A stretch of 64,000 nt of DNA, from the NCBI GenBank assembly GCA_021770445.1, contig JAETQY010000013.1:1-64000 (forward strand), read 5' to 3'. The notes beneath the pieces were generated by a model. The model ran no database searches. It saw nothing but the letters and a program-made list of their open reading frames with translations, and had not been told where the DNA came from. Of this stretch, positions 30,802 through 43,250 are shown piece by piece. The stretch is from Bacillota bacterium. Its GTDB lineage: Bacteria > Bacillota > Clostridia > Oscillospirales > Oscillospiraceae. Each line of letters opens with the position of its first letter. Position 1 is the first letter of the stretch. The position numbers and the translations under genes are program-made.

Positions 30802-31576
30802 CCGCCGCCTCCTTCTTGACGATGCGGTCCAGGGTCCACCGAACAGGCTTGGTCTCATAGGAACCGCTCGCTCCGTGGCTGCTCGGGACAAGGAGCTGTT
30901 CCAGCTTGCCGTTTGGCTTCATCACAGCCTCCATGATATACTCCGAATGGGCCGTTAAGGAGGCGGTCAGGGTGAGCTCGCCCTTGGCGTCCAGCACGGC
31001 CACTACCGTGACCTCATCGGTAAGCCCGCCGTAGGTATCCGCGTCCACATCCGCCTTAAGGGTTACGGTGTGGGGGCTCGTGGGCTGGATAGTGCTCGTC
31101 CCCAGAGGCTCGTAAGAATACTCGTCGATGGGGCTCAGCTGTCTTATGGGTACCTTGAACTGACCGGCAAAGTGGATGTCCAGGTCGTTGTACAGGGGCA
31201 GGACCTGTTTCAGTCCCCACTCGATGCCGCCCTTCCGAAGCTCACCCGTCTGCTGGGTGTAGCTGTGCTTATAGTGATCCAGGACCTTTTGTTCCTTCCC
31301 TTCCGCGTCTATTTCCGTAATATAGACAGGAGTTTTCGTGTATTCGTACTTCCCCACGTACTCCACGCTTTCCAGCTCGTCACAGATCAGGGTCAGGGCT
31401 GAGGACAGGGTCAGGTACTTCTGCTGCTCCTCCCGGTTGCTCCTGATCTTGCCCGCGTTGGAGGACGCCGCCATCAGCACCGACGCCCCCACCATCATGC
31501 ACACCAGCAGAAACAGCAGCGCCATCAGGATAGAGGCCCCCTGGCTGCTCTTCCATTTTTTCCACAGCGCTTTCAA
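30785..31576 (-). CDS. PilX/GspK-like minor pilus protein
   Basis: A 263-residue protein whose N-terminus (SSQGASILMALLFLLVCMMV) is a prepilin-like helix without the strict Glu +5, as in PilX-type minor pilins that carry general assembly signals. A helical stretch and a long beta-rich domain follow. The start is TTG 31576 behind GGAGGGA. The first 197 bases lie inside the frame of the giant prepilin upstream. It ends with an acidic tail (RIVKKEAADEETP) overlapping the next prepilin. Confidence 0.8.
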   Translation of the reverse strand: MKALWKKWKSSQGASILMALLFLLVCMMVGASVLMAASSNAGKIRSNREEQQKYLTLSSALTLICDELESVEYVGKYEYTKTPVYITEIDAEGKEQKVLDHYKHSYTQQTGELRKGGIEWGLKQVLPLYNDLDIHFAGQFKVPIRQLSPIDEYSYEPLGTSTIQPTSPHTVTLKADVDADTYGGLTDEVTVVAVLDAKGELTLTASLTAHSEYIMEAVMKPNGKLEQLLVPSSHGASGSYETKPVRWTLDRIVKKEAADEETP

Positions 31577-34500
31577 TGGGGCGCTCCCTCCTCTCCTGCT
31601 CAGCGTTCTCTTCCGGTTTGGGCTGTACGGTGATGACCAGCTCGTGGGTCAGGCCCTCCATCGTCAGGGTGACATTCAGCTTGACGCCCTCCGCCGGGAA
31701 GTCGGCGCCCGCGGTCCTCGTCAGCTTGATGACCGTCCCCTCAACCTTAGGTGTGAAGTCTGTAAGGGTGCTGTCCGCAAGAGTTGGCTGGGAGATCACA
31801 GGGGCATAGGCATCGAAGTCCATGGTCCAGACTGTACCGGCCTCGTCCCACTTGCCCTCCGGGAGCTCCAGAAGGTCCACTTCTATCTGGTGCAGCTCAT
31901 TTTCCTTGGGATAGTCGCTCTGGGTGTAGGTATAGGTCACCTCCGCCCGCCGTCTGGTATCCTCGGTCTCCTCGCCGGTCCGGGTCAGCCTGACGCCGCT
32001 CCCGTCGATCTTCGCCGAGACCGGAGCGCTCACGCCCTCCGCCTTTAGCAGGTCCAGCGTCCCGTTGAGAGACACATCGAAGGTCTGCTCCTCCGGCCTC
32101 CTGCCCCAGGCCGTCAGCGGCACAAGCACCTTGTCGTTGGGGAAAATACTCACCGTATTGGGGCGCAGCTCTATCCTTGCGGTGACGTAGACCGTGATGG
32201 GTAGGGAATACTCCGTCCCGTTCGTCTCCTCGAAGGTGACGGTCACGGTTACAGGTGTGTCGCTGGCTTTCAGGGCCGTTACGGTCAGCTTCCCGTCCAC
32301 GACTTGCGCTTTCACTACACCGTCGCCGAAGGTCGTTTCGGTGCTGGGTCCCCAGGTCCCGCTGCCGGTGGCGGTCAGTTGCTCGGTGTGGGTCCGCCAG
32401 TCCTTCCTGGTGCCATTCTCGTCGGTCCAGGCGAACATATCCAGCTCGATGGGCCGGTTACCATTGGGGCGCATGATGCCGTTGAGCTCCCACTCGCCGT
32501 AGTGGACGTTAAATACCATGCCGTCCGACACCCGGGTCTGGGTCAGCACAGTGGGGAAGGGATAGTCCATGCCTCGCAGGTCCAGACGGTCCTTGGGTGC
32601 GTAGCTAAACCGGCCCGCCATGGCCAGCCCGCCTACCTCGGAGGTCACCGGGCTGTAGGGCGCGGGCGTCTGTCCCGCGTTCAGCAGAGCATAGATCGAC
32701 TGGCCGCCAATCTCCTCTTTGCCCGCAAGCTGCTGGTAGGTGACTGCCCGCTGGCCGCTCACATTGTCCGCCGTGCCGCTCAGATAGTAGTTGTTGTTGC
32801 CCAAATCTACCGTACCGGTGCCATTATCACGCCCGGTCCCGCCGATGTTGTACACCTCCTTGACCTCTCCCCCCGTGTTGGGCAGGGTCAGGTAGCTGTA
32901 GCAGCTTTTGACGGCGGCTGTGTTTTCCGCTGCGCCAAGGGGCTCCATGCCCACGCCGCCGATGAGACGGCCGGCATAGATGGATGCGTCTTGGGCAGTT
33001 ACCTTGATCTCTCCGCCGGTGTAGCAGTTAGTCACGCTGGCCGTGGTGGAGCCTACCAGACCGCCCACTCGAATAGGCGACGCACTGCCGCTCTTGCTAT
33101 GCTCGCAGACGATTTCAATGACTGCGGCTGCGGTACAGCCTGTCAGCTCCTTGTCGGTCATACCCACAAGACCGCCGATTGCACCGCCCATATCTGAGGG
33201 CCGAGCATATGTCGTCTCATCCCGGATAGTATATCCGGCCACGGCGCAGTTGGAAATCGTACTATTCCTGGCTACGCCCACCAAAACGCCGCCAGCGTAC
33301 CAGGCATACGCATTGTTTTGCAGCGTAACACTGCCATCACCGGTGTGTTTATCCCTCGATCTTCCTCTTACCTTTACCACATCCTGCCCGGATTCAGAAA
33401 ACATCACTATATCCGTCAACGTGGCATCTTGTACATACCCGAAAAGCCCCATGGTATTGATCTGATAGTTATACTCGTTTATGTCAATATTGAAATTTTT
33501 TAAGGTATAACTGCCGCCGTCATAAGTACCTCCGAACCAACCAGACACCGTCCCGGTGTCATTTCTAACGAAGCCTTGGGCAATAGGGAAAAACACGCCA
33601 TTTTCATTGTCTTTCTCACCATTCTTATAGGGATCATAGGACTTTCTCTCCGCAACCCAGTCGATATCGTGGGTCTGCTTCCAGTAATAGTCTTTGTTCA
33701 AATAGGGGAAGCGTGTAACACTGTAATTTCCCAGGCCCACAGGCACGTCGGTATAAGCCGTGTCATACCAGTTGATATCCTGAAGCTGGAGGCCGCTACG
33801 CACCTGATAGGGATTCTCCTTCACCGTACCGGGGGCCTTGTCGGAAGCTCCACCAGTTATCGTCAGTCCCCCTGCGTTCTGCACCGACATAGCGTCCGCA
33901 AATTGGGGATTAACGATAAACTCCACCTGTAGAGTGCCTTGCTTCAATTTAAAAACTCCGCTATTGGGATCGAGCGGCTTACTGCTGTCCTTCCTAAACA
34001 AGCACAACCCGGATACAGTTTTTTTCGCACGGTAAATATCATCATTTTCATTCGCCGCCTTCGGGGCTTCGCGATAAGTATTCCAGCAACGGAACGTATA
34101 GCCCGTTATTAACTCAGACAGACCTTTCTCTGCCGCAGTCTCCCTCGCTTTGGAGTCCGCCTCACCTTCCTTTATGGCTTTAAGTTTTTGGGGATCATCG
34201 TTTTCATAAAATTCTCGTTCTTTATTAGGATCCAACTTATTAAAATTTTCAAAATTAAGGTATGTATTGTCGTCTCGATGGCTCCAAAGCATATACGGAG
34301 TATTACCGATATTTTCCGCCTCCAACGTGACATTCTCCGCAACATCTTTGCTGGAATAGTAGCCGTAGCCATACTCGGTGACCACCCGACCGTCGCCGTG
34401 GGCCTCGGACAGGGTGCTCTGCTTGGTAATGGTCTTTTTCTCAATGTCCACAGCCAGGGCGCTCATGTGGTAGGTGGGATTTCCGCCGCCCTCGGCGTCC

Positions 34501-37500
34501 ACCAGCTTCTCCCAGTAGAACACCCCCATCTCTCCCAGAGGCATGGGCTCGGGCCACTGGCCATAGTGGACATACTGCCCCTCTCTGTTCTTCACGGCGG
34601 CAGGATAGGGGAATTCCTTTTCCGGGTCCGGCTTATCTCCCTGCCAGACCGTACCCATGCCCATATCGCCCGCCTTTTCCTTGGTGGCCAGGTCCGTGTA
34701 CCGGGTCGAAGCAGCCTTGTCGTCCGTCCGGGAATAGTTGGCGGCGTAGGCGGAACCTCGATAGGAGAAGTTCCCCTGGTCCAGGTAAGCGGTCCCGCTC
34801 TGGCTGCCCGCCCTCACACCGCAGAAGCCGTAGGCCTCCACCTTGTCGCCGCTGGACTGTAGATCCACCGCCGCGTAGGAATTGGAGATACTGCCGTAGT
34901 TCCACCCCACAAAGCCGCAGATTCGGGCGATCGTGACGTTGCTGTCTACCTCAATGTCGATACAGCCCACCGCGTAGGAGCTGGTAATGGTACGGGAGGC
35001 GGCGTTCTCGCCCACCAGACCGCCCATATAGACGCTGGCAAAGTTGAGGCAGTTCGCGCTGAGCCGGGCAGTCTCCGCCGCGCAGTTCCGGATAATCCCC
35101 TGATTCTGCCCCACCAGGCCCCCTACATAGAGCCGCACACCGGAGGCTCCCGCCCGCAGGTTGGCCCCGGAAACGGCACAGTTGTACACCGTGCCTGCGT
35201 TGCCGCCCACCAGGGCGCCCACATACAGGTTCTCGGCGGCACTGCCCAGATAGGCCACCACCTGGTACTCCGCATCCATCTCATAGACAATGTTCCGCAG
35301 CGTACCTGTGGAGTATCCGAACAGCCCCGCATACCGGCGGCCCGTAAGGTCATCCACCTTGAACACCACGTTTTTGATGACGTTGCAGTCCCCGTCGTAG
35401 GTCCCCTCAAAGGCGTCGATCTTGCCCGTCTTGGGATCGGTCTTGCCGCTGCCGATGGGCTGCTGGACAAAAGGCCTTCCATCTAAGGGCTTTCCGTCTT
35501 CGGTCTTCTGGAGCAGGCCGTTATACCCGGTGTAGGCGGAGTAGTCCAAGTCCAGAATCTGGTGGAACACGTTCCGCCGGGTGTAATATTCCTTAAACTG
35601 GCTCAGGTCGTACAGATGCCGCGGGGTGCGGAGCTTGATCTCATCCATGGACGCGGCCAGTTGGTTGGCGCGCTCCGTCACGCTCTCCTCGGTCCAGCCG
35701 CCCTCCACGCCATCACTTGAAACAACAGGCGTCACTGTCTCGGCAAAGTGGGGGTTGTAGAAGTATTCGCCGCTCCGCGCCCCGGTGTCCTCGTCCTCGC
35801 CCTTGCCCAGGTTCAGGTCGAACTTCAAATACCGGTAGAAGCAGCTCTGCGCGTAATCGTCCTCCTCACCGATGCAGGTCACATTGTCGGGCAGGGGGAT
35901 CATGTAGTAATCCGCCGTATTGCCCTCGTCGTTTGTCCACTTTGTTTCGGTCAGGTCTTTTTTAGCATATGTCTTGGCCAGGTTTTTTTCTTCTCCGTCC
36001 TTGTTCCGGTATGTGTACGTGACTGTAACAAATTCCGCATTTAAATCACTCTGCAAAAAGGCCACGGCGTAGCCGTCCGACAGGACGGTTTTTTTGTCGG
36101 ACAGGCTGTTGATCAGGTCTCTGGCGTTGCCGCCGGAGACGCCCCAGGTATTGTCGCTGTACTCCTCGTAGTAGACCAGGCTGGGCTCCTTGAACTCCGC
36201 GCCCCAGTCGCCGTAGTGAGGCAGGTTCTTCAGGCCGGGGAAGCTGTAGGCGTCCAGCGTCAGGTGCTCCCGGAGGTTGTAGGGGTGGCTATCGTCCTTC
36301 TTCCACCCGAAGGCCTCACCCATTTCTCTACGAAACTCTTCTGAGGTCATCTCGGTGTAGATCGTACTCTCAATGCCCCCAACCATCTGTGATTCCTTGC
36401 CCAAAAAGTGGGTGTTGGTGAAGCTGTCACTGCTCTGATTCCCTGTCAGAAATGCAAGTGTATCCTCAATGTTCCGTTTAGGATACCGCATGGCGGAGTA
36501 GACGTTCGTTGCCGTGGTTTTCCCGGCGCCCAGGCACAGCCCAGCGGCGCTGCTCCCACCCATGATGTACCCGGCGGCGTAGCAGTTTTTCAATTCAGCG
36601 TGTCCCATTTTCAGGTCGCCGATTAAACCGGCGGCCTTCGCGCTGTCGCCCCCGGTTAAATAGCAGTCGGCGTAAGAATACTTGACCGTTACCGTACCGC
36701 CATCAAATTGGCCAACCAAGCCGCCGGCACAGCCCGTTCCACTTACCAGTGTGGCGGCCAAACTGCTGGTGATGGTGCAGTTGCCCTTTGAATATCCCAC
36801 CAGGCCACCGGCGCTGTCCCCGTTGACCTGATATTGGTAGTGGTCCTCGCCGCCCACGTCGCTGCCCAGCACATCCTTCAGATCGGTTATGTCCCCATCC
36901 GGCTCCCAGTAGACCCAGCAGTTTTTGATGACGGCGTTCTCCGCCTCGCCCACCAGAGCGCCGGCAGACTTGCCGTTCGCTTTCACCGCCGCGTTGACCA
37001 AGCGGATGTTTTGGAGGGTCGTCCCGCTCACTTGCCCAAACAGCCCGGCGGGGCCGGCGCTCTCCACATACAGGTTTCTAATCTCGTTGGCCCGGCCGTT
37101 GTAGTCGGTCAGCTTTGAGTTATTGATCGGAACAAAGGCCTTATATTCCCCGTCCGCCCCGTAAGTCTCGTTGTCCTTGCAGCGAATATCAGCGGTCTGT
37201 TCAGCCTTGGTCTTGCCCGTCACCCCGGAAAAGGTGCTGTCTAAATTTTGCAGGTGCCGCAGACACTTGATATAGGCGGTGTCACCGTCGCTTCTCGCCT
37301 GGAAGAGGCTGTTGTTATCGTCATAGGCGGAGGCCTCCGCAAAGGACTTGCCGTCCTGGGGGGCGATCTCAGCCGTGACGGTGAAGTTCTCGCCGGGGGT
37401 GACGCCGGTATCGCCTAGCTCCTTGAATTTTCCCGCTGTCAGGCTGTCCAGCACCCAGGTGCAGGTATAAGCAGTGCCGTTGGTGCCGTTTTGGATCCTT

Positions 37501-38195
37501 TCGTCCCGCTTCCTGGCGTCATATGTACTGTCGGTCAGCTCAACATTCCCCAGCTCTACCGACAGCTCCGCCGGACCGGGGGCGGTGTACTCCACCGTTA
37601 CGGTGAGCTCCTCCCCGTTGTCGATCATCACCTTGATGGTGGGCTCCTCTGGGATGTCCAGCTCCACATCCTCACCCTGGGCGGCCTGGCCGTTGTACCA
37701 GCCCACCAGCATCTGGTTCTTCATCTCCAGGCGCTCAGAACGGCTCTTGGCCCAGTTCTCATAGAATTTGTCAAAGCCATCGGTCATAAGGCCATCCATG
37801 GAGCTCTCGGCGTAAAACACATCGGTGACGCTGCCGCTCTTCCGGTCGTAGACAATGTAAAAGTCACCATCCCGCAGGGCCGGGTCGATGCTCCCCGTGG
37901 GCAGCAGTTCCTCTTTCATCGAGGTCTTTGACACATAATCAAATTTTGAATTCGGGGCTTTCTCGCCAAGCTGGTTGTTCAGCCGCCGGGCCCCAGACAG
38001 CAGCACCACCCGGTTCTCCGCGGCCATGTAAATTTCCCGGGCCGCGTTGTCCAGCTCGGTAATTTTTAATAGGTCCCGGTAACCGGCTGCGGCCACCATG
38101 GAGATGCCCAGCAGGATCACAAGGATCGCCACCACTGCCAGCATCTCCACCAAGGAAAATCCTCTGCTGTTGTTGTTCAAACGTCTTGTCTCCAT
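31380..38195 (-). CDS. Giant prepilin-anchored GLUG-repeat surface protein (putative pilus tip adhesin)
   Basis: A 2,271-residue protein, first gene of the pilus operon. Residues 1-40 are a class III prepilin signal: SRGFSLVEMLAVVAILVILL with cleavage after Gly 12 and Glu +5. Three blocks of GLUG-type repeats follow, with motifs such as SAGGLVGYSKG, YVGGLVGQNQG and RVGGLVGSTT (about 380-570, 950-1100 and 1585-1750, at least 14 copies). These form beta-solenoid adhesins elsewhere. Near the C-terminus lie Ig-like segments (VTVTVTFEETNGTEYSLPIT). The region around 33.3-34.3 kb is AT-richer than its surroundings. The last 65 codons overlap the next gene out of frame and are Gly-rich, so the native end may be near residue 2206. 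Tip adhesin is inference. Confidence 0.85.
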   Translation of the reverse strand: METRRLNNNSRGFSLVEMLAVVAILVILLGISMVAAAGYRDLLKITELDNAAREIYMAAENRVVLLSGARRLNNQLGEKAPNSKFDYVSKTSMKEELLPTGSIDPALRDGDFYIVYDRKSGSVTDVFYAESSMDGLMTDGFDKFYENWAKSRSERLEMKNQMLVGWYNGQAAQGEDVELDIPEEPTIKVMIDNGEELTVTVEYTAPGPAELSVELGNVELTDSTYDARKRDERIQNGTNGTAYTCTWVLDSLTAGKFKELGDTGVTPGENFTVTAEIAPQDGKSFAEASAYDDNNSLFQARSDGDTAYIKCLRHLQNLDSTFSGVTGKTKAEQTADIRCKDNETYGADGEYKAFVPINNSKLTDYNGRANEIRNLYVESAGPAGLFGQVSGTTLQNIRLVNAAVKANGKSAGALVGEAENAVIKNCWVYWEPDGDITDLKDVLGSDVGGEDHYQYQVNGDSAGGLVGYSKGNCTITSSLAATLVSGTGCAGGLVGQFDGGTVTVKYSYADCYLTGGDSAKAAGLIGDLKMGHAELKNCYAAGYIMGGSSAAGLCLGAGKTTATNVYSAMRYPKRNIEDTLAFLTGNQSSDSFTNTHFLGKESQMVGGIESTIYTEMTSEEFRREMGEAFGWKKDDSHPYNLREHLTLDAYSFPGLKNLPHYGDWGAEFKEPSLVYYEEYSDNTWGVSGGNARDLINSLSDKKTVLSDGYAVAFLQSDLNAEFVTVTYTYRNKDGEEKNLAKTYAKKDLTETKWTNDEGNTADYYMIPLPDNVTCIGEEDDYAQSCFYRYLKFDLNLGKGEDEDTGARSGEYFYNPHFAETVTPVVSSDGVEGGWTEESVTERANQLAASMDEIKLRTPRHLYDLSQFKEYYTRRNVFHQILDLDYSAYTGYNGLLQKTEDGKPLDGRPFVQQPIGSGKTDPKTGKIDAFEGTYDGDCNVIKNVVFKVDDLTGRRYAGLFGYSTGTLRNIVYEMDAEYQVVAYLGSAAENLYVGALVGGNAGTVYNCAVSGANLRAGASGVRLYVGGLVGQNQGIIRNCAAETARLSANCLNFASVYMGGLVGENAASRTITSSYAVGCIDIEVDSNVTIARICGFVGWNYGSISNSYAAVDLQSSGDKVEAYGFCGVRAGSQSGTAYLDQGNFSYRGSAYAANYSRTDDKAASTRYTDLATKEKAGDMGMGTVWQGDKPDPEKEFPYPAAVKNREGQYVHYGQWPEPMPLGEMGVFYWEKLVDAEGGGNPTYHMSALAVDIEKKTITKQSTLSEAHGDGRVVTEYGYGYYSSKDVAENVTLEAENIGNTPYMLWSHRDDNTYLNFENFNKLDPNKEREFYENDDPQKLKAIKEGEADSKARETAAEKGLSELITGYTFRCWNTYREAPKAANENDDIYRAKKTVSGLCLFRKDSSKPLDPNSGVFKLKQGTLQVEFIVNPQFADAMSVQNAGGLTITGGASDKAPGTVKENPYQVRSGLQLQDINWYDTAYTDVPVGLGNYSVTRFPYLNKDYYWKQTHDIDWVAERKSYDPYKNGEKDNENGVFFPIAQGFVRNDTGTVSGWFGGTYDGGSYTLKNFNIDINEYNYQINTMGLFGYVQDATLTDIVMFSESGQDVVKVRGRSRDKHTGDGSVTLQNNAYAWYAGGVLVGVARNSTISNCAVAGYTIRDETTYARPSDMGGAIGGLVGMTDKELTGCTAAAVIEIVCEHSKSGSASPIRVGGLVGSTTASVTNCYTGGEIKVTAQDASIYAGRLIGGVGMEPLGAAENTAAVKSCYSYLTLPNTGGEVKEVYNIGGTGRDNGTGTVDLGNNNYYLSGTADNVSGQRAVTYQQLAGKEEIGGQSIYALLNAGQTPAPYSPVTSEVGGLAMAGRFSYAPKDRLDLRGMDYPFPTVLTQTRVSDGMVFNVHYGEWELNGIMRPNGNRPIELDMFAWTDENGTRKDWRTHTEQLTATGSGTWGPSTETTFGDGVVKAQVVDGKLTVTALKASDTPVTVTVTFEETNGTEYSLPITVYVTARIELRPNTVSIFPNDKVLVPLTAWGRRPEEQTFDVSLNGTLDLLKAEGVSAPVSAKIDGSGVRLTRTGEETEDTRRRAEVTYTYTQSDYPKENELHQIEVDLLELPEGKWDEAGTVWTMDFDAYAPVISQPTLADSTLTDFTPKVEGTVIKLTRTAGADFPAEGVKLNVTLTMEGLTHELVITVQPKPEENAEQERRERPIESAVEKMEEQPGGLYPDGAAVSAGVHDGGGVGADGGVLQRGQDQEQPGGAAEVPDPVLSPDPDL

Positions 38196-39586: not shown

Positions 39587-39623
39587 AAAAATGAACGCAC
39601 CGGCTTTCGGTGCGTTCATTTTT
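39587..39623 (-). terminator. Terminator of the glutamate dehydrogenase pair
   Basis: AAAAATGAACGCACCG, a 5-base loop and CGGTGCGTTCATTTTT form a 16-bp stem just after the downstream gdh stop on the minus strand. Confidence 0.85.
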
Positions 39624-39638
39624 CACAATAAAGTCCTC

Positions 39639-40982
39639 TTATAATCCTTGGGCGACCATGGCCTCGGAGATCTTCTTGAAGGCGGCGATGTCGTTGCCGG
39701 CGATGAGGTCGTCCCCCAGGCCGTACTCCTGGGCCGCCGCCGCAGAGGCGTCATAGATGGCGCCCATGATCTGACGCAGCTTGTCGTCCACCTCGGCCCG
39801 GGTCCAGTTATAGCGGATGGAGTTCTGGGCCATCTCCAGGGCGGACACCGCCACGCCGCCGGAGCCGGAGGCCTTGGCCCCTGCGGCCAGAATCTTGGGA
39901 CTGCGGCGCAGCAGCTTCATGGCGTCGGCAGTGGCGGGCATGTTGGCCCCCTCCACATAGTAGCGCACGTCGTTGGCCAGGATGCAGATGGCGTCCTCCA
40001 CGTCCAGCTCGTTCTGGGTGGCGCAGGGGATCACGATATCCGCTTTCACCTCCCAGGGCTTCCGGCCCGGGAAGAACTCCACGCCAAACTTCCCCGCGTA
40101 GGCGGACACCCGGTCCTTGCCGCTGTCCCGCATCTCCAGCAGGAAGTCCTGCTTCTCCTTGGTGGCGACTCCCTCCGGGTCGTAGATATAGCCGTCAGGG
40201 CCAGAGAGGGTGACTACCTTGGCCCCCAGCTGGGCCGCCTTGCGGCACACACCCCAGGACATGTTGCCGAAGCCCGAGACCGCGATGGTCTTACCCTCCA
40301 GGCTGTCCCCCTTGCTCTCCAGCATCCGAGCCAGGAAGTAGACTACCCCCGACCCGGCGGCCTCCAGGCGGACCTTGCTACCGCCGTAGGTGAGCCCCTT
40401 GCCGGTGAGGGCGGAGCTCTCCGCCTTGCCCAGCAGGCGCTTGTACTGGCCGTAGAGATAGCCGATCTCCCGGGCCCCCACGCCGATGTCGCCGGCAGGG
40501 ATGTCGGTGTCCGCGCCGATGTAGCGGTACAGGGCGTTCATGAAGGACTGGCAGAAGCGCATGATCTCCCGGTCGGACTTGCCTCTGGGGTCGAAGTCGG
40601 CCCCGCCCGAGGCCCCGCCGATGGGCAGGCCGGTGAGGGCGTTTTTATAGGTCTGCTCAAAGCCCAGGAATTTCACTACGCTCTCGTTCACCGAGGGGTG
40701 GAACCGCAGGCCGCCCTTGTAGGGGCCGATGGCGCTGTTGAACTGCACCCGGTAGCCGTGGTTGGTGTGGGCGTTCCCCTGGTCGTCCACCCAGGGCACC
40801 AGGAAGGTGACCATCCGCTCGGGCTCCACCATGCGGGTGAGCAGGTCCAGCTTCTCGTAGCGGGGGTCGTCCAGAGCGGGGTCGATCATCTCCAGCCAGG
40901 TCTGTACCGACTGGAGGTACTCCCCCTCGCCGGGGTACTTCTGACGGAGCCGCTCCAATACACGGGCCGCATAGTTATTCAT
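39639..40982 (-). CDS. gdhA: Glutamate dehydrogenase paralogue with altered active site
   Basis: A 447-residue hexameric-type glutamate dehydrogenase by full-length similarity: FNSAIGPYKGGLRFHPSVNE, IPAGDIGVGAREIGY and a Rossmann GFGNMSWG. In the Clostridium symbiosum numbering, which this protein follows exactly, Lys89, Lys113 and Asp165 are kept. The catalytic Lys125 is Ser (GGASGGADFDP in place of GGxKGGSDFDP; codon TCG). EATGYG is EAAGSG and KAxNAGG is KASGSGG. It therefore probably cannot carry out normal oxidative deamination. It lies 12 bases after an intact paralogue and keeps a good ribosome site (AAGGAGGG), so it is expressed and open over its full length. Confidence 0.85.
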   Translation of the reverse strand: MNNYAARVLERLRQKYPGEGEYLQSVQTWLEMIDPALDDPRYEKLDLLTRMVEPERMVTFLVPWVDDQGNAHTNHGYRVQFNSAIGPYKGGLRFHPSVNESVVKFLGFEQTYKNALTGLPIGGASGGADFDPRGKSDREIMRFCQSFMNALYRYIGADTDIPAGDIGVGAREIGYLYGQYKRLLGKAESSALTGKGLTYGGSKVRLEAAGSGVVYFLARMLESKGDSLEGKTIAVSGFGNMSWGVCRKAAQLGAKVVTLSGPDGYIYDPEGVATKEKQDFLLEMRDSGKDRVSAYAGKFGVEFFPGRKPWEVKADIVIPCATQNELDVEDAICILANDVRYYVEGANMPATADAMKLLRRSPKILAAGAKASGSGGVAVSALEMAQNSIRYNWTRAEVDDKLRQIMGAIYDASAAAAQEYGLGDDLIAGNDIAAFKKISEAMVAQGL

Positions 40983-40994
40983 AGGGGTCCCTCC

Positions 40995-42341
40995 TTACAC
41001 CAGGCCGTAGGCCAGCATGGAGTCAGCCACCTTCAGGAAGCCGGCGATGTTGGCCCCCGCCACCAGGTTGCCCGCCATGCCGAACTGCTCGGCGGCCCGG
41101 GCGGCGTTGTGGTACAGGTCGGTCATGATGGTCTTGAGCCGGTCGTCCACCTCCTGGAAGGTCCAGGAGAAGCGCATGGAGTTCTGGCTCATCTCCAGGG
41201 CGGACACTGCCACGCCGCCGGCGTTGGCGGCCTTGGAGGGGGCGAAGAGCACGCCGGCCTCCTGGAGGGCGTCCATGGCCTCAGGGGTGGAGGGCATGTT
41301 GGCCCCCTCCACCACGGCGAAGCAGCCGTTCTTGATGAGGGCCTTGGCCCCCTCCAGGGGCAGCTCGTTCTGGGTGGCGCAGGGCAGGGCGATGTCACAG
41401 GGGACATTCCAGATGTTGACGCAGCCCTCGTGGTACTCCGCGCCGGGCTTGCGGGCGGCGTACTCCTTGATGCGGCCCCGCTCCACCTCCTTGATCTGCT
41501 TCATCAGGTCCAGGTCGATACCGTCCTTGTCATAGACATAGCCGTTGGAGTCGGACATGGCCACCACCTTGCCCCCCAGCTGGGTAGCCTTGTCGCAGGC
41601 GTAGATGGCCACGTTGCCGGAGCCAGACACCACCACGGTGGAGCCCTCAAAGCCCTTGCCGTTATCCTTGAGCAGGCAGTCGGCCAGGTAGCACAGGCCG
41701 TAGCCGGTGGCCTCCTTCCGGGCCAGAGAGCCACCGTAGGTGAGCCCCTTGCCGGTGAGCACGCCGGTAAACTCGTTGCGCAGCCGCTTGTACTGGCCGA
41801 ACAGATAACCGATCTCCCGGGCGCCCACACCGATGTCGCCGGCGGGCACGTCGGTGTCGGGGCCGATATACTTGAACAGCTCGTTCATGAAGGACTGGCA
41901 GAACCGCATGACCTCCGCCTCAGACTTGCCCTTGGGGTCGAAGTCGGAGCCGCCCTTGCCGCCGCCGATGGGCAGGCCGGTGAGGCTGTTCTTGAAGGTC
42001 TGCTCAAAGCCCAGGAACTTGATGATGCTCTCGTTGACGGAGGGGTGGAAGCGCAGGCCGCCCTTGTAGGGGCCGATGGCGCTGTTGAACTGGATGCGGT
42101 AGCCCCGGTTGACGTGGATGTTCCCCTTGTCGTCCTCCCAGGGTACACGGAACTTAATGGTCCGCTCGGGCTCCACCAGGCAGTCCATGACGCCCTCGCG
42201 AATCAGCTCAGGCCGGGCGTTGGCAACAGGGGCCAGAGAGGTGAGCACCTCCCGCACCGCCTGGTGAAATTCCTTTTCGCCGGGGTCGCGCTGGATGACC
42301 CGCTCCATCAAACCGTTCAAATACTCATTCTGAATGCTCAT
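40995..42341 (-). CDS. gdhA: Glutamate dehydrogenase (catalytic set intact)
   Basis: A 448-residue glutamate dehydrogenase interconverting glutamate and 2-oxoglutarate plus ammonia. All active-site segments are canonical: GPYKGGLRFHPSVNES, FEQTFKNSLTGLPIGGGKGG, DFDPKGKS, VPAGDIGVGAREIGY, KEATGYG and KAANAGG. The start is ATG 42341 behind GGAGGAAGA; the 32 upstream codons have no ribosome site. Coenzyme preference is not certain from sequence. It is the first gene of a two-gene unit with the altered paralogue. Confidence 0.94.
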   Translation of the reverse strand: MSIQNEYLNGLMERVIQRDPGEKEFHQAVREVLTSLAPVANARPELIREGVMDCLVEPERTIKFRVPWEDDKGNIHVNRGYRIQFNSAIGPYKGGLRFHPSVNESIIKFLGFEQTFKNSLTGLPIGGGKGGSDFDPKGKSEAEVMRFCQSFMNELFKYIGPDTDVPAGDIGVGAREIGYLFGQYKRLRNEFTGVLTGKGLTYGGSLARKEATGYGLCYLADCLLKDNGKGFEGSTVVVSGSGNVAIYACDKATQLGGKVVAMSDSNGYVYDKDGIDLDLMKQIKEVERGRIKEYAARKPGAEYHEGCVNIWNVPCDIALPCATQNELPLEGAKALIKNGCFAVVEGANMPSTPEAMDALQEAGVLFAPSKAANAGGVAVSALEMSQNSMRFSWTFQEVDDRLKTIMTDLYHNAARAAEQFGMAGNLVAGANIAGFLKVADSMLAYGLV

Positions 42342-42566
42342 ACTCTCTTCCTCCCGAAAGTTGTCCCGCCGGAACTTGCTTCTCCCTCTCCTCCGACGGA
42401 TTGTTAATACATTAACATGATTATTTTTGCAAGTCAATCCCCCATTCCCTGCAAATCACATTTTTGTTTAATGCGCTAAAGTAATAGTTTACTGCTGCGC
42501 TACTTTCGGCATTTTGCCATACACCAAAAGGGCCGCCGGCTCTCTCCCTTGCAGAGGGATTTTCTA

Positions 42567-42595: not shown

Positions 42596-42641
42596 GCAGC
42601 TCCTTTGCATTTAGACCGCAGTTTTGAGAGGAGGAAACAAG

Positions 42642-43250
42642 ATGAGATCGGTAGACCCGGCCCAGACCGGACGGGCAGAGGCCTTCGCGCTGTGGATGAA
42701 GGCCCCTATGCCTATGGTGACGCTGTTCAAGACGCTGGACGTCACCCCCCTGGTGCAACAGCGCCACAAATTCAATATGCTGATGTGTTGGTGCATCGGC
42801 AAGGCCGCCTCCCAGGTGGAGCAGTTCTACCTGCTACCCGTGGGGGACGGGATGGTGGAGTACGACCGGCTGGCGGTGAGTACGGTAGTCGATGTGGGAG
42901 ATGGGGAGATCAGCACCTGCGACGTCCCCTTCTCCCCTGACCTGGAGCAGTTTGAAGCGGATTACCTGCGCCTCACCGCCCTTGTCCGGGACAGCCGCCG
43001 GCCCCATGACCTGGAGGACCATATGGTCATCGGCACCTCCGCCCTGGTCCAGACCGAGATCGACGGAGCGGTGAATATCTACGCCGGGTGCTACAACAAT
43101 CCCTTTATGATCTGGGGCCAGTACCGGAAAAAGTGGCTCAGGACCCTTCTCCCGGTCTCCTTCCAGTTCCATCACACCCAGATGGACGGCGCCCACGCCG
43201 CCCGGTTTTTGGAGCTTTTGCAGGAGGAGATCAGAAAATTTTCCCTGTAA
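42642..43250 (+). CDS. Chloramphenicol acetyltransferase-like (CatA-type) enzyme
   Basis: A 202-residue acetyl-CoA-dependent O-acetyltransferase of the CatA fold. The catalytic segment is FHHTQMDGAHAARFLELL, with the HHxxxDG motif near the C-terminus. The N-terminal strands (FKTLDVTPLVQQRHKFNMLM) fit the family. Chromosomal CAT-like proteins of Clostridia often have unknown natural substrates, so resistance cannot be claimed. It has its own promoter and terminator. The start is ATG 42642 behind GAGGAGG. Confidence 0.85.
   Translation: MRSVDPAQTGRAEAFALWMKAPMPMVTLFKTLDVTPLVQQRHKFNMLMCWCIGKAASQVEQFYLLPVGDGMVEYDRLAVSTVVDVGDGEISTCDVPFSPDLEQFEADYLRLTALVRDSRRPHDLEDHMVIGTSALVQTEIDGAVNIYAGCYNNPFMIWGQYRKKWLRTLLPVSFQFHHTQMDGAHAARFLELLQEEIRKFSL

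Follow-up and report, generated by a model that had tools for sequence, protein, structure and literature searches.

An NAD-type glutamate dehydrogenase homologue without the catalytic lysine, encoded directly behind an NADP-type glutamate dehydrogenase in the Oscillospiraceae: a putative regulatory subunit

The window analysed here, a stretch of 64,000 nt from an Oscillospiraceae genome, carries two adjacent glutamate dehydrogenase (GDH) genes, and the product of the second, which we refer to as the pseudo-GDH, lacks the catalytic Lys125. Judging from sequence comparisons and from an analogy with the GDHs of Thermus, we propose with a probability of roughly 0.57 that the pseudo-GDH is a non-catalytic subunit made in step with the upstream NADP-GDH (its partner), which it would join in mixed hexamers and whose activity it would tune. 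The features concerned are as follows.

39639–40982, minus strand: pseudo-GDH gene, 447 aa, NAD-type lineage, without catalytic Lys125 (open reading frame, 1bgv alignment, tree, clade comparison)
40608–40610, minus strand: codon 125, TCG (Ser), replacing the catalytic lysine (sequence, motif search, 1bgv alignment)
40356–40358, minus strand: codon 209, GCC (Ala), replacing Thr209 of the nicotinamide pocket (1bgv alignment; Ala in all 50 distinct clade members)
39864–39866, minus strand: codon 373 (Gly), replacing Asn373 of the nicotinamide pocket (1bgv alignment; Gly in all 50 distinct clade members)
40983–40994, minus strand: 12-nt junction, with the Shine-Dalgarno sequence GGAGGG immediately after the partner TAA (sequence)
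40995–42341, minus strand: gene of the active-type partner, an NADP-type GDH that has the catalytic residues (open reading frame, alignment, family profile)
39588–39622, minus strand: hairpin of 15 bp, U-rich on its 3′ side, shortly after the pseudo-GDH stop, a candidate terminator of the two-gene operon (folding)

The start of the partner gene is placed at the ATG of MSIQNEY, picked by eye, and the junction reads TAA-GGAGGGACCCCT-ATG, with 12 nt between the genes; this is the strong ribosome site that the initial annotation had described ahead of the pseudo-GDH. The hairpin has a folding energy of -22.8 kcal/mol (z -6.07); it is absent from the list produced by a consensus scan, which also contains no promoter before the first GDH gene. 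A crude terminator script, with 31 hits, 15 misses and one case at an edge, is given no weight. From the short gap and the hairpin directly 3′ of the second gene we infer that both genes are co-transcribed, and the layout is consistent with a two-gene operon in which translation of the downstream gene is coordinated with that of the upstream one. Antisense to both GDH genes is an open frame of 919 aa (39648–42407, plus strand), in all likelihood a consequence of GC-rich codon usage. Beside the gdh operon, a divergent ORF (42624–43250, plus strand) has, by eye, a chloramphenicol acetyltransferase-type look, and elsewhere in the window a 2271-aa ORF (31380–38195, minus strand) resembles a prepilin at its N-terminus (GFSLVEMLAVVAILVILL) and contains recurring GGLVG segments, also seen by eye.

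The region of the catalytic lysine reads ...LTGLPIGGASGGADFDP in the pseudo-GDH and ...LTGLPIGGGKGGSDFDP in the partner, with the catalytic motif GGASGG in the former and GGGKGG in the latter, and the lysine-less motif pattern has one match in the window and none in 100 shuffles. The initial annotation had reported a serine at the catalytic lysine, retention of Lys89, Lys113 and Asp165, and changed loops at EAAGSG and ASGSGG, and alignment with Clostridium symbiosum GDH (1bgv) agrees throughout. The serine is residue 125 in both its own and the C. symbiosum numbering, and its codon falls inside the quoted interval 40606–40617; the three other residues are retained; and the two changed loops are confirmed, reflecting the substitutions Thr209 to Ala and Asn373 to Gly. 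The protein is full length, as had been stated, with residues 3–447 aligning with 1bgv at 58% identity over 442 columns. The C. symbiosum NAD-GDH (1bgv/1hrd) is its closest solved relative and has the same fold, the same adenosine residues (Phe238, Pro262 and Asp263) and the same substrate clamps; unlike it, the pseudo-GDH has no Lys125, Thr209 or Asn373 and is encoded in an operon next to an NADP-type GDH. Mutation of Lys125 leaves C. symbiosum GDH with almost no activity. An AlphaFold2 model of the monomer (mean pLDDT 83.3, pTM 0.85) has C. symbiosum GDH as its best PDB matches, and in this model the pseudo-GDH keeps the GDH fold, with pLDDT below 50 at residues 122–128, around the lost lysine, and at 193–202.

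In terms of what defines a catalytic hexameric GDH, the fold and profile, the clamps Lys89, Lys113 and Ser380 and the catalytic Asp165 are all present, and Lys125 and the nicotinamide-pocket residues Thr209 and Asn373 are missing. The pseudo-GDH nonetheless passes the cut-off of the NCBIfam profile PRK09414 (NF006929, NADP-specific glutamate dehydrogenase) with 611.5 bits against 536, although it lacks the catalytic lysine and belongs to the NAD-type lineage. Several close homologues are named NADP-specific GDH in public records, a label that is probably wrong for the pseudo-GDH in both function and coenzyme class.

Residue 125 was followed through relatives found by protein similarity, with no use of the motif, and lysine occurs there in none of the 120 closest listed proteins (the best 120 of 8000 scored), none of 18 other same-genus genomes and none of six further family genomes. 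The same best 120 all have Ala at position 209 and Gly at 373. Searching 60 relatives by protein similarity located the gene in 18 of 36 other same-genus genomes at 72–94% identity, with Ser at residue 125 in 12, Ala in four and Gly in two; one of the genomes (G009) additionally carries a 40-aa end piece of the gene. For comparison across the clade we grouped sequences at an identity of at least 66% (64 rows, with no row between 63% and 70%; an earlier set picked by the absence of lysine and the presence of Gly373 likewise had 64 rows), and with a partial duplicate dropped (L047 of L004) there are 50 distinct full-length members, which have Ala (25), Ser (22) or Gly (3) at residue 125. Conservation of Ser125 had been suggested as a check, and in the best 120 of 8000 homologues it is nearly complete (Ser 119, Ala 1), so that random decay is not borne out, but Ala and Gly also occur in the wider clade. 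A new catalytic serine is thereby ruled out as the trait, which across the alignment is the loss of lysine, and new Ser-based chemistry is unlikely since members have Ala, Ser or Gly at this position. The earlier suggestion of a pseudoenzyme thus stands insofar as we find a conserved, selected and probably inactive GDH linked to an active-type one, but not in the weight it gave to the serine itself.

The remaining active-site positions fall into two groups. Residues 209 and 373 are Ala and Gly in all 50 distinct members, their codons (GCN and GGN) varying synonymously while the amino acids stay constant; Thr209 and Asn373 are invariant in all of 75 distinct lysine-bearing GDHs. We take C. symbiosum Asn347, Asn373, Thr209 and Asn240 to be the counterparts of Asn312, Asn337, Thr185 and Asn216 of Arabidopsis GDH1, as mapped by spacing and motif. 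These four Arabidopsis residues make up the nicotinamide site, according to PMC7326016. Two of the four (Thr209 and Asn373) are thus lost from the pseudo-GDH pocket, and Asn240 and Asn347 are kept. Also kept in 50 of 50 members are Lys89, Gly91, Gln110, Lys113, Arg205, Val377 and Ser380, together with Phe238, Pro262 and Asp263 at the NAD-type adenosine end, and Asp165 is present in 49 (the other has an X). Partner proteins have the NADP-type Ser238 and Ser262 in 49 of 49 rows, which were chosen by Ser262; replacing Phe238 and Pro262 with Ser boosts NADPH use in C. symbiosum GDH, as given in PMC3157743. More broadly, 109 of 134 columns conserved among the 75 lysine-bearing GDHs are retained in the pseudo-GDH clade, which has near-fixed residues of its own at Trp28, Gly368 and Asp431.

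Substitution patterns in the 37 species that have full-length copies of both genes (666 pairs) show the pseudo-GDH diverging 1.18 times as fast as its partner, with mean identities of 0.806 and 0.836 respectively. The median dN/dS is 0.220 for the pseudo-GDH and 0.189 for the partner (466 pairs with dS of 0.1–1.0, by simple counting; the pairs are not independent), values which clearly point to maintenance of the pseudo-GDH by long-term purifying selection. In a tree of 83 GDHs, built with columns 125, 209 and 373 excluded, the pseudo-GDH clade is a single branch (100/100) adjoining NAD-type GDHs including that of C. symbiosum, and the partners lie in the NADP-type half; the pair therefore joins two old paralogues. 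The initial annotation had spoken of tandem gdh genes, and although the genes are adjacent, this placement rules out a tandem duplication of the partner. The two proteins of the pair are 54% identical, which permits mixed hexamers and does not guarantee them.

The wider distribution was surveyed in a collection of 84,980 species, each represented by a single genome, with a DNA pattern for lysine-less motifs, which excludes lysine by design and misses codons starting with A (first base not A), giving 82 loci, 60 in the pseudo-GDH clade and 22 outside it. Titles of the clade loci include Oscillibacter, Lawsonibacter, Flintibacter, Pseudoflavonifractor and Colidextribacter, with the named strains Flintibacter muris DSM 110149 and Oscillibacter valericigenes An411 among them, and by their titles many of the collection genomes concerned are gut samples. 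In 56 of the 60 the ORF immediately upstream, in the same orientation, is a GDH, the other four having no more than 36 upstream bases in the sequence, and no pseudo-GDH locus with upstream sequence is without a partner. The upstream ORF is lysine-bearing in all 49 cases with the motif in the sequence, seven being too short to include it, and the junction is 10–14 nt long in 55 of 64 rows, mostly of the TAA-GGAGG-ATG type. The gdhA and gdhB genes of Thermus are also adjacent. Within the family the gene is patchy and not universal, being found in seven of 300 sampled genomes (best five or fewer candidates per genome); the 13 matches at E 1e-190 in this sample comprise these seven clade members, the window's own included, and six lysine-bearing NAD-type GDHs. 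Two same-genus genomes (G019 and G023) have a partner-clade GDH and no pseudo-GDH, despite 1.8 and 2.9 kb of downstream sequence, and the pseudo-GDH is thus dispensable. Their partner proteins are not evolving faster relative to LeuA (1.69 and 2.04, against 0.33–2.16 in nine others), and there is therefore no sign of a released interface constraint. Three of the 19 genomes that carry the pseudo-GDH (G000, G014 and G028) have the partner and no match to a third GDH beyond a 32%-identity piece in G028, which makes the adjacent gene the likely partner, an argument weakened by the incomplete assemblies.

Elsewhere, lysine-less GDHs have independent origins, two of them likewise following an active-type copy, and the tree requires seven changes at residue 125. 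The 22 loci outside the clade consist of 16 titled as Desulfobacterota/Deltaproteobacteria kin, two from Zixibacteria, and one each from Tindallia, Bacteroidales, other Clostridia and Anaerolineae; the last (L090) has no GDH ORF and is taken as a chance match. The forms in Tindallia (Lys to Gln, with Thr209 to Ala) and in a Bacteroidales MAG (Lys to Glu) are each encoded directly behind a lysine-bearing GDH. Seven of the best 120 proteins for the Tindallia form are without lysine, five having Thr together with Thr209 to Ala and Ser or Gly at 373, and two having Gln with Thr209 to Ala. For the Bacteroidales form, 118 ids (of the best 120, two being already in the Tindallia-form search) have Glu (23), Gln (1) or Lys (94), the lysine-bearing ones including some with identities of at least 80%, and this case is therefore labile. 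Losses of Lys125 and Thr209 go in the same direction in 3–4 of seven independent pairs and never in opposite ones, too few for significance. No neighbour is shared among 14 of the lysine-less loci outside the clade (gene calls, by eye). Several individual forms can be recorded here. The Desulfobacterota loci make up a separate lysine-less group, in which seven (L031, L054, L059, L062, L070, L092 and L103) combine Lys to Ala with Thr209 to Ala and two others (L034 and L036) combine Lys to Gln with Asp165 to Gly. Five of seven lysine-less Desulfobacterota genomes searched also have a GDH with the usual residues among the subset of matches inspected; in that subset G061 has no such GDH and G063 has only one with Asp165 to Gly. 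The Zixibacteria proteins (L066:6120-7646 and L112:3979-5499) have His for Lys125, Ala for Lys89, Arg for Lys113 and Ala for Ser380, most of the active site being replaced. The only matched GDH of a Clostridia MAG (L050:4188-5552) has Lys125 to Glu with the other checked residues intact, possibly a sequence error. Two proteins near the Tindallia group (P0128 and P0150) keep Lys125 and have Ala at 209, with Gly at 373 in P0150 also, and are perhaps intermediates.

With Lys125 and half of the nicotinamide pocket missing, GDH catalysis by the pseudo-GDH is very unlikely, and a regulatory subunit fits because the ligand sites are kept and the gene is closely coupled to that of one particular GDH. 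The nearest precedent is the GdhA-GdhB heterohexamer of Thermus, in which, according to PMC9570180, one subunit type is inactive and regulatory. In Thermus thermophilus an inactive GDH homologue works with an active one, activity being set by ligand (same source), and the pseudo-GDH gene has an active-type GDH neighbour in 56 of 56 loci with upstream sequence. The two systems differ in that the Thermus GDHs form a distant branch (3aoe chains A and B, 29–30% identity by Foldseek) and that the present pair spans two GDH lineages, the inactive member being NAD-type with the triple loss of Lys125, Thr209 and Asn373 and the active one NADP-type. We infer that the pseudo-GDH associates physically with its partner and regulates it: without GDH activity of its own, as its residue losses predict, it would assemble with the partner into mixed hexamers and bind glutamate or 2-oxoglutarate and/or an adenine nucleotide with no turnover, and closure of its domains may set how active the partner is, in the way that GdhA acts on GdhB in Thermus. 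A more specific version, speculative and on balance unlikely, is that an NAD-type GDH has turned into a receptor, with the catalytic lysine and nicotinamide contacts deleted and the adenosine end and dicarboxylate clamp frozen. NAD(H) or another adenine nucleotide, with 2-oxoglutarate or glutamate, would then gate an NADPH-dependent GDH in mixed hexamers and the catabolic redox pool would control ammonia assimilation, a design that may have arisen repeatedly, each time in a separate line of GDHs.

Other explanations can be accommodated to varying degrees. The pseudo-GDH could be a homohexameric pseudoenzyme sensor or moonlighting protein that binds ligands alone and acts on another target, with the operon only matching its level to that of GDH. 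Retention of most family-wide conserved columns and of the ligand residues is compatible with this, as is the existence of partners without a pseudo-GDH; however, subunit exchange is a simpler explanation of the tight junction (55/64 rows), the adjacency in all 56 loci with upstream sequence and the pairing in two other lineages, and we find a free-standing role doubtful. An enzyme with a changed activity, using another substrate or a reaction not needing Lys125, would account for the strong purifying selection, the retained Asp165 and substrate clamps and the clade-specific Trp28, Gly368 and Asp431. Yet every distinct member has lost two of the four residues of the nicotinamide pocket, which argues against another hydride transfer and so against the other dehydrogenase activity that had been suggested initially, and with Ala, Ser and Gly interchanging at residue 125 the position has acquired no fixed catalytic side chain; such an enzyme seems quite improbable.

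As a stabiliser or dosage decoy, the pseudo-GDH would be an inactive filler that senses no ligand and either dilutes active sites or helps its partner to fold, for which the conserved columns and a junction suggestive of coupled translation could be cited, but pure filler gives no reason for the strict retention in 50 of 50 members of Lys89, Lys113, Arg205, Phe238, Pro262, Asp263 and Ser380, and we regard it as very improbable. The loss of catalytic residues might also be put down to a decaying gene or an assembly error, an explanation left with hardly any credibility by the median dN/dS of 0.220 and the same losses in 60 loci, named strains included.

We found no published description of such an inactive GDH control layer in the open-access papers searched. 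GDH stands between carbon and nitrogen metabolism and, if the proposed role of the pseudo-GDH as a regulatory subunit is true, a selected inactive GDH coupled to an active-type gene in 60 loci would be an additional layer of control. The pattern predicts mixed hexamers, and metabolic models would be misled by the automatic name of NADP-specific GDH. Since the same positions have been lost repeatedly, these proteins would provide a natural experiment on the passage from enzyme to regulator.
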